A stretch of DNA of 64,000 bases, from contig NZ_CP137852.1 in NCBI RefSeq assembly GCF_033547095.1, positions 4,737,001 through 4,801,000 of the forward strand. The letters are read 5' to 3'. This DNA comes from Sediminicoccus rosea (lineage in GTDB: Bacteria; Pseudomonadota; Alphaproteobacteria; Acetobacterales; Acetobacteraceae). The notes under the pieces are model-generated. The model saw nothing but the letters and a program-made list of their open reading frames with translations, did no database searches and had not been told where the DNA came from. This document shows positions 21,197-24,489 of the stretch, in pieces. A program made the translations under genes and the position numbers. Position 1 is the first letter of the stretch; the number at the start of each line of letters is the position of its first letter.

Positions 21197-21664
21197 ATGT
21201 CGTTTGCCCGAGGCGCGGGGTGCGCCGCCCTGCTGTCGTTGCTTCTCGCCTTTGATGTCCAGGCGCAGACAGCCGTTGGGGGCTTCTATCGGCAAGCCAA
21301 CCAGAACGCCGTCATGTTCCAATACACCAGGGACCGCTACTGCCACGTGCAGAGCGAAAGCCAGATGGCGGCCTATGGGGGCTTCTCGAAGGTGACGGTG
21401 GTTCCTCGGCTTGCCATGATGGGGCAGCAGACGGGCACCTGCGCCTGGCCCAACGGGTTCTACCGGCGCAGGAACGAGACCGCCGTCTATCGGCTCTACG
21501 GCGTGGGCGTGGTGGCCGGCGTGGGCACCGACATCTGCCATGTGGTGAATGAGCAGCAGATGGGGTCCTTCGGCGGGTTTCAGCAGGTCCGGGTCGTGCA
21601 GCCCACCGCCGATTTCGGGCGGGGCCGCGGCCCGGTCTCTCCCTGCAACACCAGGGCCGGCTGA
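21197..21664 (+). CDS. Small exported protein with an internal duplication
   Basis: A 155-residue protein of unknown function. Residues 1-23 form a signal peptide (CAALLSLLLAFDVQAQ). The mature part holds two related units of about 55-60 residues. Unit 1 runs from GGFYRQANQNAVMFQY to CHVQSESQMAAYGGFSKVTVV. Unit 2 runs from NGFYRRRNETAVYRLY to CHVVNEQQMGSFGGFQQVRVV. Shared landmarks are GFY-R, CHV, a Q-M pair and (Y/F)GGF-x2-V. The cysteines could form disulfides in the periplasm. I know no family name for it. It lies alone between gltX and cysS with its own -10 box. Confidence 0.72.
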   Translation: MSFARGAGCAALLSLLLAFDVQAQTAVGGFYRQANQNAVMFQYTRDRYCHVQSESQMAAYGGFSKVTVVPRLAMMGQQTGTCAWPNGFYRRRNETAVYRLYGVGVVAGVGTDICHVVNEQQMGSFGGFQQVRVVQPTADFGRGRGPVSPCNTRAG

Positions 21665-21684
21665 GCCACCCGTCCGCTTTGGGC

Positions 21685-21713
21685 TTGATGCTTCGCCCCG
21701 GCTGGCGCATAGC
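21685..21713 (+). promoter_or_regulatory. Putative promoter of the cysS leader
   Basis: TTGATG (21685-21690) and CATAGC (21708-21713) are spaced by 17 bases. A start 7 bases after the -10 box would fall at 21720, the A of the ten-codon cysteine-rich frame. The transcript would then begin directly with that AUG. This is inferred from spacing; no transcript data are available. Confidence 0.5.
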
Positions 21714-21719
21714 TGCGCC

Positions 21720-21752
21720 ATGGTCCTGACCTGCCCCTGCTGCTACGGCTGA
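21720..21752 (+). CDS. Cysteine-rich leader peptide ahead of cysS (putative attenuator)
   Basis: A ten-codon frame, ATG to TGA, encoding M-V-L-T-C-P-C-C-Y-G, ends 46 bases before the first cysS start codon. Three of its ten residues are cysteine, clustered at positions 5, 7 and 8. No Shine-Dalgarno sequence precedes it, but the predicted transcription start coincides with its AUG, so a leaderless mRNA is plausible. A GC-rich hairpin follows its stop by four bases. Short frames with clustered cysteine codons that sense charged tRNA-Cys are known ahead of cysteine genes in mycobacteria. Here the downstream gene is cysteinyl-tRNA synthetase. Translation and regulation are inferred. Confidence 0.5.
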   Translation: MVLTCPCCYG

Positions 21753-21756
21753 CGCC

Positions 21757-21771
21757 CCGCGCGCCGCGCGG
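21757..21771 (+). promoter_or_regulatory. GC-rich hairpin in the cysS leader
   Basis: CCGCGC (21757-21762) and GCGCGG (21766-21771) can pair as a six-base stem with a GCC loop, four bases after the stop codon of the cysteine-rich leader frame. No U-tract follows, so it is not a classic terminator. It could control access to the cysS start region or act as one arm of an attenuator. Confidence 0.4.
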
Positions 21772-21798
21772 TGATCGTGCCCGCTGCCGTTTTGCCCT

Positions 21799-23235
21799 AT
21801 GGACCCCCATCTCATGACAGAGCTCCGCTTCCATAACAGCCTCACGCGCCGCGAGGAGGCGTTCCGCCCGCTCGATCCCGCGCATGTGAAGCTCTATGTC
21901 TGCGGCCCCACGGTCTATGACCTGGCGCATCTGGGCAATGCGCGGCCGGTGGTGGTGTTCGACGTGCTGGCCCGGCTGCTGCGGCGTGTGTTTCCGCGCG
22001 TGACCTATGCGCGGAACATCACGGACGTGGATGACAAGATCAACGCGCGCGCGCGGGAGTCCGGCGAGCCGATCAGCGCCATCACCGCCCGCACCACCGC
22101 CGATTTCCACCGCGACATGACGGCGCTGGGCGCCCTGCCGCCCGATGTGGAGCCGACGGCGACCGGCCACATCGCCGAGATGATCGCGCTGACGGAAAAG
22201 CTGATCGCCAATGGCCATGCCTATGCGGCGGAGGGCCATGTGCTGTTCAGCGTCGGCAGCTTCGCCGACTACGGCAGGCTCTCCGGCCGCAACCAGGAGG
22301 AGCTTCTGGCGGGCGCGCGCATCGATGTCGCGCCCTACAAGCGCGATGCGGGCGACTTCGTGCTCTGGAAGCCGAGCGACGACGAGACGCCGGGCTGGAA
22401 TTCGCCCTGGGGCCGTGGCCGTCCGGGCTGGCATATCGAGTGCTCGGCCATGTCGTGGCGGCATCTTGGCGAGCAGTTCGACATCCATGGCGGCGGCGCC
22501 GACCTGCTGTTCCCGCATCACGAGAACGAGGTCGCGCAAAGCCGCGCCGCCTTCGGCACGCCCTTCATGGCCCATACCTGGCTGCACAACGGCATGCTGC
22601 TGGTGGATGGCGAGAAGATGTCGAAGAGCCTCGGCAATTTCCTCACCGTGCAGGACATCCTGGCGCAGGGCCCCTGGGCGGGCGAGGCCTTCCGCCTGCT
22701 GCTGCTGCGCACGCATTACCGCTCCGCACTGGACTACACCCAGGCCGGCCTGCAGGAGGCGAAGGCGGAGCTGGATGACAGCTACGCGATGCTGGGCCGC
22801 GCGCCGGCGGTCAGCGAATCCCCGCTCATCACCGAGATGGCGGAATGGGCGCTGGAGCCGCTGGCCGATGACCTGAACACGCCGCTCGCGATCGCCCGCC
22901 TGCGCGACCTTCGCACGCTGGAGAACAGCGCCACGGTGGGCGGTTCCGCCGCCGCCGTGCTCTCGCGCATCGGCAAGTCCTGGCAGCCCGTGCCCGGCCA
23001 GGCGGCGGCGGCCTTCCGCGAGGCGGCGGCGGTGCTGGGCCTGGCACAGGGCGATCCCCGCGCATGGCTGCAGGGCGGCGATGACGCGAGCGCGATCGAG
23101 GCGGCCATCGCGGCCCGCCTCGCCGCGCGCGCGGCGAAGAACTGGGCCGAGGCGGACCGCATTCGCGCGGAGCTTCTGGCCCAGGGTGTGGTGCTGGAGG
23201 ACAGCGCGGGCGGCACGACATGGAAACGCGCTTGA
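21799..23235 (+). CDS. cysS: Cysteine-tRNA ligase
   Basis: A 478-residue class I synthetase charging tRNA-Cys. The first zinc cysteine lies in [10 protein letters not shown], followed by the HIGH-like HLGNARP. The other zinc ligands lie in IECSAMS and HHENE, and the KMSKS loop is [10 protein letters not shown]. The full DALR and C-terminal region is present. Two in-frame ATGs compete: 21799 (MDPHL) and 21814 ([13 protein letters not shown]). The second fits family N-termini better, and neither has a strong ribosome site. The cysteine-rich leader frame and hairpin lie just upstream and suggest control by cysteine supply. Confidence 0.92.
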
Positions 23236-23287: not shown

Positions 23288-23662
23288 ATGAACCGCCGCA
23301 CCGCCCTGATCGCCGCCACCGCCGCGCTCCCGGGCACCGCCCTCGCGCAGTCGCCGCATGCCGGGCATGGCGCGGGCCATACCCCATCGGCCGCGCGCAA
23401 CGAGCCCGCCAGCACGCGCGAATTCCGCGCCGCCAACAACGCCATGCACCGCGCGATGGAGATCCGCTACAGCGGCAATGCCGATCGCGACTTCGTGGCC
23501 GGCATGATCCCGCACCATGAGGGCGCGATCGAGATGGCGCGCATCGTCCTGCGCCACGGCACCGACCCCGAGGTGAAGCGCCTGGCGGAGGAGATCATCC
23601 GCGCGCAGCAGGCCGAGATCGCGCAGATGCGCGCCATCCTCGCGCGGCTTCCCGCCAGATGA
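23288..23662 (+). CDS. DUF305-domain exported protein
   Basis: A 124-residue protein with a signal peptide ([19 protein letters not shown]) and a DUF305 domain, a ferritin-like helical bundle seen in many periplasmic proteins, often near metal-handling genes. The family core is visible: [20 protein letters not shown], then [16 protein letters not shown] and a final [13 protein letters not shown]. The HH and H/M-rich segment ([10 protein letters not shown]) suggests metal binding. An AAGGAG site lies 8 bases before ATG 23288. It overlaps trmJ by 4 bases (ATGA), an odd pairing of an exported protein with an RNA methylase. Confidence 0.85.
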
Positions 23663-24489
23663 GGGAGCTGGGCGCCGCACCACTGGTCGCGCCCGAGGGC
23701 GAGACGCCCATCGTGGTGCTCGTGCGCCCGCAGCTCGCCGAGAATATCGGCACGACAGCCAGGGCGATGGCCAATGGCGGGCTGTTCCACCTGCGCCTGG
23801 TTGCCCCGCGCGATACTTGGCCGCACCCGCGCGCCTGGGCCGCGGCCTCGGGCGCGGATCGCATCCTGGATGCGGCGCAGGTCTTCGACACGGTGGATGC
23901 CGCCATCGCCGATTGCCACCGCGTGCTGGCCACCTGCCCGCGGCCGCGCCATGTGGTGATCCCGGTGATGACCGCGCGGGCCGGGGCGGCCGAGCTGCGC
24001 GACATCAACGCGCGCGGGATGCGCGTCGCGGTGCTGTTCGGGCCCGAGCGCGCAGGACTGGAGGCCGAGGACCTGGCGCGGGCGGATACACTGATCCGCT
24101 ATCCGCTCAATCCGGAATTCAGCTCCCTCAACCTCGCCCAGGCGGTGATGGTGCTGGCCTATGAATGGTGGGTGGCGGCGGATGCGACGCCGCCGCGCCA
24201 GCTGCAGACGCACAAGACCGCGGTCGCGACCAAGGGCAGCCTCGACAATTTCATGGGCCACCTGATCAGCGAGCTGGACGCCTGCGGCTTCCTGCGGAAC
24301 GCGCCCAAGCGCGAGGGCATGGTCCGCAACCTGCGCCATTGGTTCGAGCGCGGCGAGATTACCGAGCAGGAGGTCCGCACCCTGCACGGCGTGGTGGCCG
24401 AGCTGTCGCGCGGGCGCATGCGGCATGGACGGCCCGAGGCGAAGGCCGATCGGGAGAGCACGGCGAAGGCCGATCCGCCCGGGGCCTGA
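23659..24489 (+). CDS. trmJ: tRNA (cytidine/uridine-2'-O)-methyltransferase TrmJ-like
   Basis: A 276-residue SPOUT-class RNA methyltransferase. The knotted SAM-binding fold is shown by [20 protein letters not shown] (N-terminal motif 1), [20 protein letters not shown] (motif 2) and [21 protein letters not shown] (motif 3). TrmJ methylates the ribose of residue 32 in several tRNAs. A C-terminal extension ([28 protein letters not shown]) is typical for TrmJ rather than TrmL. The start overlaps the DUF305 stop. The gene ends 3 bases before the convergent Bug gene with no terminator visible. Confidence 0.85.

Follow-up and report, generated by a model that had tools for sequence, protein, structure and literature searches.

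The region ahead of the cysteinyl-tRNA synthetase gene (cysS) in the 64-kb window (i.e., the whole stretch of DNA that was analysed) is probably a real, conserved and leaderless cysteine attenuator of this gene, as judged from the comparison of related genomes. It is very likely that a short frame with clustered Cys codons acts as the cysteine sensor. We favour, with moderate confidence, a ribosome-mediated and cysteine-responsive attenuator in which a helix hiding the ribosome-binding site (RBS) of cysS would be the switch, and we lean slightly towards an output that is translational rather than transcriptional. The elements of the window are the following:

21685-21713, + strand: promoter predicted from the sequence, with a -35 box TTGATG (21685-21690), a 17-nt spacer and a -10 box CATAGC (21708-21713)
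21720-21752, + strand: short ORF MVLTCPCCYG (stop TGA at 21750-21752) with Cys codons 5, 7 and 8, the putative sensor, from the sequence and its counterparts in relatives
21722-21726, + strand: GGUCC, 5' arm of the proposed helix hiding the cysS RBS, from MFE and RNAalifold
21745-21793, + strand: alternative longer stem ACGGC (21745-21749) / GCCGT (21786-21790), read from the sequence, with its 3' arm running into UUUU (21790-21793), a possible weak terminator
21757-21771, + strand: hairpin CCGCGC-GCC-GCGCGG, 3' of the short ORF stop (arms 21757-21762 and 21766-21771), from the sequence
21801-21805, + strand: GGACC, likely Shine-Dalgarno region of cysS (core GGA, conserved) and 3' arm of the proposed helix, from the sequence
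21814-23235, + strand: cysS, cysteinyl-tRNA synthetase, the proposed regulated gene, from Pfam

The sequence elements on which the original prediction was built, i.e., the frame directly before cysS, the TTGATG/CATAGC pair with 17-base spacing and the six-base GC stem four bases past the short-frame stop, are all found at these positions, and Pfam confirmed the product of cysS (tRNA-synt_1e, PF01406, E 2.9e-116; also PF23493). The start of cysS is most likely 21814, where the relatives align, an alternative ATG being located at 21799, and a GGA lies at most 22 nt from the cysS ATG in all 42 leaders tested. The best named matches of the genome are Paracraurococcus and Roseicella, which NCBI assigns to Acetobacterales, Roseomonadaceae. 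Note that a 155-aa frame (21197-21664, + strand) without Pfam match lies between a glutamyl-tRNA synthetase-like gene and the attenuator, with a similar tail in the sister genome G009, and that a DUF305 gene and a SpoU-type methylase gene (23288-24489, + strand) follow close behind cysS and might share its control.

Since the -10 box is located 6 nt before the ATG at 21720, the transcript of the window should be leaderless and should start at the A of the short-frame AUG. This distance was 6 or 7 nt in 43 of 44 leaders when the best -10 box of each leader was considered. A generic sigma-70 scan with a stricter threshold reported no promoter at the window leader, so that the promoter rests mainly on its conservation in relatives. 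The pattern TTGA-N19-21-ATA-N7-9-ATG had six matches in the 5.1-Mb genome versus four for a reversed control; at two of these, the ATG leads into a frame of at most 20 codons, and only the one before cysS contains Cys. On both strands of the 64-kb window, five short promoter-led ATG frames were identified, among which clustered Cys codons occur only in the cysS-leader frame, one other (MTACSARAR) having a single Cys.

A comparison of relatives for a conserved Cys frame, proposed along with the original prediction, gave a positive result. A cysS match was found in 383 of 397 sampled family genomes, and the survey covered 119 genomes, including 20 of the genus of the window (15 with the frame) and 99 others. 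A Cys frame of 4-13 codons occurs at the same place before cysS in 44 of the 119 (seven numbered genera and Paracraurococcus), a proportion that is not a prevalence because the genomes were those ranked highest by similarity, some of them chosen in genera where the frame had been seen before. A short frame with cognate codons just upstream of the gene is a feature of ribosome-mediated leader-peptide attenuators, and the Cys codons of the distinct frames among these 44 putative leaders are frame-specific (see below). Moreover, all 38 promoter-led short frames (37 loci, one counted twice) contained Cys, versus 21 of 42 other short ATG frames (Fisher p 6e-8), in a comparison of 118 loci after duplicate removal (G006 still being present twice) in which related genomes are non-independent, the thresholds were fixed after a first look at the sequences, and the 42 other frames include longer in-frame versions of the same sORFs and sORFs with weaker promoters. 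Promoter-led frames had been selected by a -35/-10-like pair, 5-8 nt to the ATG and a frame of 3-15 codons, Cys not being a criterion. Altogether, the sequences of the window and its relatives establish a leaderless-type promoter spacing together with a conserved Cys frame.

The frame was absent in 75 of the 119 genomes. Four members of the genus of the window (G008, G007, G014 and G002) have cysS so close behind the gene before it that a leader has hardly any space or none. By eye, two degenerate leaders (L023 of G018 and L180 of G293) kept promoter-like boxes and lost the ATG of the sORF. No control shifted upstream of the gene preceding cysS was seen on either strand in L114, L116, L134 and L243, within DNA reaching little past that gene. 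Rfam, T-box included, gave no match in window positions 21400-22000 at E up to 1, and none at gathering scores in 12 loci. At other cysteine genes of the genome (one PF01507 and 12 PF00291 loci, both strands), no promoter-led short frame was found. A search of 200 genomes for Cys at codons 5 and 7, a pattern too narrow for most of the known cases, matched in three only: the window, the beginning of a long and presumably MarR-like frame (L258), and a 27-codon frame (L259), the latter two being unrelated.

The encoded peptides differ among relatives (MVCR, MVKSCRCC, MPILRCCC, MFQACRCRC, up to MSASRLRAPALCR) but share Cys codons close to their end and a TGA stop. Indeed, all 34 distinct frames stop at TGA, the last Cys being located 0-3 codons ahead of it. 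Cys codons account for 67 of 333 in-frame codons (stops counted) versus 7 of 299 and 2 of 299 in the two other reading frames, counts that reflect frame specificity and not enrichment as such because the frames were chosen for Cys. Their spacing varies; two or three Cys codons are present in 21 of the 34 frames, the window showing the CPCC cluster, and a single one in 13. TGT represents 31 of the 67 Cys codons of the frames versus 0 of 49 in part of the first 150 cysS codons (41 loci), a preference that may reflect slower decoding or base pairing.

We propose the following sequence of events, for which we infer the actual transcription start, the translation of the frame, the stalling and the sense of control (activation by stalling). 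Transcription would start at the A of the short-frame AUG, and the ribosome would thus load directly on the 5' end. With ample Cys-tRNA(Cys), it would cross the 4-13 codons fast and leave, and the 5' part of the leader would then pair around the Shine-Dalgarno sequence of cysS (GGUCC at 21722-21726 with GGACC at 21801-21805 in the window), leaving cysS poorly translated. If charged tRNA(Cys) runs low, the ribosome would wait on the Cys codons and cover most of the frame, the helix would be blocked and cysS would be translated. The pairing of the 5' part of the frame with the RBS is a better-supported switch than the six-base stem, which is probably not the decisive element because its sequence and position differ between genera. 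The original prediction is supported as to a leaderless-type Cys-codon attenuator before cysS, with its conservation in the 44 genomes. The stem was also ruled out as a terminator, as no T run follows it.

The folding data point to such a helix to a degree that varies among the leaders. In the window, opening the RBS is predicted to cost 6.5 kcal/mol versus a mean of 4.1 in codon-permuted leaders (0 of 30 as high), and 10% of 40 other ATG-led stretches of the locus cost as much; taken by itself, the 5-bp helix GGUCC/GGACC does not surpass shuffled sequences, 43% of which are as good. Over 42 of the 44 leaders, which served for the opening-cost, duplex, helix and T-run analyses (G415 and G342, found later, being left out), the opening cost had average ranks of 0.27 and 0.32 against two controls. 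The duplex energy between sORF and RBS was -14.2 versus -12.5 to -12.7 in controls, a modest gain, and the individual 5'-end helices reached 0.05 or less against shuffles in 3 of the 42, one of these being away from the RBS.

The effect of a stalled ribosome was modelled as the cost of opening the cysS RBS without a ribosome versus with a ribosome having a Cys codon in its A site. In this model, 30 of 44 leaders show a drop in cost exceeding 1 kcal/mol, and six show a rise. For 33 representatives of the 44, the mean modelled exposure was 1.95 versus 0.29 kcal/mol in controls (20 per leader, obtained by permuting the non-Cys codons and shuffling the spacer), and 14 of the 33 stand out, no more than 10% of the 20 controls of each reaching the same value. 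These belong to g28 (4/4), g49 (5/7), g1 (3/12, namely the window, G009 and G006), g48 (1/2) and Paracraurococcus (1/1); none was observed in g84 (0/3), g114 (0/3) or g41 (0/1), and 9 of the 12 in g1, the genus of the window, do not stand out. The model therefore predicts exposure on stalling above control in a part of the genera. Note that the first Cys is codon 12 in g114 and g41, so that a ribosome stalled there would not cover the very 5' end.

The predicted helices change from genus to genus, with AUCCUG facing CAGGAU at the cysS Shine-Dalgarno sequence in g28, UGGUCC facing GGACCA in g84 and GGUCC facing GGACC in the window. Helices formed between the frame and the RBS of one genus outscore pairings across genera (360 of 40,320 permutations of the genera did as well), in a test devised after the sequences had been seen and with a signal that comes from g28, g41, g48 and g84, g49 and g1 being near control level and Paracraurococcus at 0. 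RNAalifold paired the 5' part of the frame with the RBS region in five of seven sets (g1a, g1b, g28, g49 and g84), whereas g114 gave another pairing. The idea of one conserved structure throughout the genus of the window was rejected, as RNAalifold gave none on 13 mixed g1 leaders.

The leaderless form of the Cys frame appears widespread in alphaproteobacteria, as suggested by 77 more distant cysS loci (gammaproteobacteria included), in which Cys was present in 15 of 16 promoter-led short frames versus 50 of the 155 remaining short frames; one of the loci, L059, lacks sequence ahead of cysS, and the Cys frames of the Rhodobacterales loci L061, L082, L090, L096 and L101 fall below the promoter threshold. 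As examples, MKTVICIICRKIIR occurs in Rhizobium leguminosarum and Ensifer, MTRTAISICCIIR in Marivita and MTTATRNRISILIICS in Stappia, each followed by a stop. In the 19 distant leaders tested, the first nucleotides of the frame mostly pair with an element 19-26 nt past the stop, at most 5% of shuffles being as good in 9 of the 19, and the pairings change in sequence but match (GAACGG/CCGTTC, GAACGCG/CGCGTTC and GAAAACGTC/GACGTTTTC).

Other distant loci also drew attention. Leaderless-looking short frames rich in Cys and Ile were seen before cysS in L047, L052, L072, L074, L080, L091, L092, L093 and L106, from Rhizobium-, Ensifer-, Mesorhizobium-, Bradyrhizobium- and Stappia-like genomes, several with complementarity of the 5' end to an element past the stop. 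In L102 (Hyphomonas beringensis), a frame ending in ACCCCR and a stop lies before cysS. In L046 (the alphaproteobacterial MAG D4_MAG_00008), a 27-codon frame with nine Cys (MTHQSCSCKKCDCHGNCGKNCACGCCK) occupies positions -136 to -55 before cysS with an SD-like AAAAGGAG ahead of it, and is possibly a leadered cysteine-rich leader of cysS.

Three other readings of these data have to be weighed, and the most serious keeps the same leaderless Cys sensor with transcription attenuation as output: the tail of the frame and the downstream sequence would fold into a weak terminator (or a Rho-dependent stop), and stalling would prevent this and let transcription continue into cysS. Such a mechanism has been proposed for uORFC-8-2 of Rhodobacterales (PMC8632094), and it would agree with the window stem ACGGC/GCCGT running into UUUU, with the 12 of 42 leaders having at least five T in the 8 nt after some hairpin (likewise 5 of 18 leaders of other orders) and with the partner element of the other orders, which is far from cysS. 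However, no terminator-like site was called in window positions 21600-21900, fewer than five T follow the hairpin in 8 of 8 g114 and 6 of 7 g49 leaders, and the modelled RBS exposure goes beyond controls in the 14 leaders mentioned above, so we consider this output less likely than the translational one for the leaders studied here. The best T count in the 8 nt after a hairpin is four in the window and five in the sister locus L009.

Much less probable is the reading of the short frame as a Cys-containing metal or thiol sensor instead of a gauge of charged tRNA(Cys). Copper-responsive Cys uORFs are known, and the 21 distinct frames with two or three Cys would suit such a role; the 13 with a single Cys (one being just MVCR) and the varying Cys spacing argue against it, and the downstream cysS fits tRNA charging, although the survey covered upstream regions of cysS only. 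As for chance, i.e., an arbitrary short frame in GC-rich DNA, Cys-containing short frames do occur without a promoter (the 21 of 42 above, some being the same sORFs). Nevertheless, the frame is conserved while its sequence changes, and we rejected this explanation as extremely improbable on the promoter-led Cys counts in both relatives and distant loci and on the frame specificity of the Cys codons.

The translational attenuator that we favour has to be compared with known systems. The original prediction held that no such frame had been described before cysS in alphaproteobacteria, which is incorrect, since uORFC-8-2 is one: PMC8632094 lists 145 examples, exclusively before cysS in Rhodobacterales, with tandem Cys codons (usually at positions 14 and 15), ribosome stalling as the proposed sensor, two prominent stems and a terminator-like 3' U run, and the word 'leaderless' is absent from its main text. 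A Cys-codon uORF directly upstream of cysS is likewise found in the window and its relatives, with stalling as the putative sensor. In contrast, the window belongs to Acetobacterales, the frames have 4-13 codons with a proposed RBS pairing, and the window has four T at best in place of the U run. The Rhodobacterales loci of our set have tandem Cys at other codons (e.g., 9-10 in L099), although the start codon meant may differ. Relative to uORFC-8-2, the other order, the predicted leaderless architecture, the very short frames and the lack of a called terminator in the window are new, as are the leaderless-looking Cys frames ahead of cysS in further alphaproteobacteria. Besides PMC8632094, our literature search found no paper on uORFC-8-2 or on a cysS Cys-codon uORF, and no cysS leader was described for Acetobacterales or Hyphomicrobiales in the titles and abstract starts searched, most subscription journals being outside this search.

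Clustered Cys codons, as in the window, recall the polycysteine attenuators of mycobacteria, and four codons, as in MVCR, would be very short for a regulatory leader peptide; frames of such length are missed by usual gene finding. In the mycobacterial systems, a stalled ribosome exposes the RBS, several cysteine loci are controlled together and the target genes are other than cysS. Leaderless polycysteine sORF attenuators were reportedly described in mycobacteria by Canestrari et al. in 2020. A review states that a mycobacterial leaderless short frame with Cys codons controls the next gene via cysteine-dependent elongation (PMC9031893), and the 2020 study appears as a reference entry in PMC13236596. 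The likeness, drawn by description only, lies in a leaderless-type Cys-codon frame before the controlled gene, in another phylum. Within alphaproteobacteria, the trpL of Sinorhizobium meliloti is a leaderless leader-peptide attenuator whose RNA begins at the sORF AUG (PMC7298713 and PMC10117765). The cysS leader resembles it in its leaderless type, with an RNA start predicted here from promoter spacing, whereas trpL has Trp codons, trpE(G) as target and a terminator that releases an sRNA. Note that cysS is absent from the main text of PMC10117765 and of the Caulobacter study PMC4117421.

As a tentative extension, which we regard as possible and somewhat doubtful, one leaderless Cys-codon module may control cysS in many alphaproteobacteria (Acetobacterales, Hyphomicrobiales and Rhodobacterales), in which the ribosome entry site at the 5' end would also be a helix arm and a single ribosome on as few as four codons would be the switch. 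The lineages would have swapped the output, with a partner shortly past the frame (terminator-type) in Hyphomicrobiales and Rhodobacterales and a partner at the cysS RBS in Acetobacterales. More generally, the attenuator proposed here would extend the leaderless Cys-codon type of mycobacteria to alphaproteobacteria, where it would act on the tRNA(Cys)-charging gene, and would indicate that one sensor is able to govern either translation or termination.
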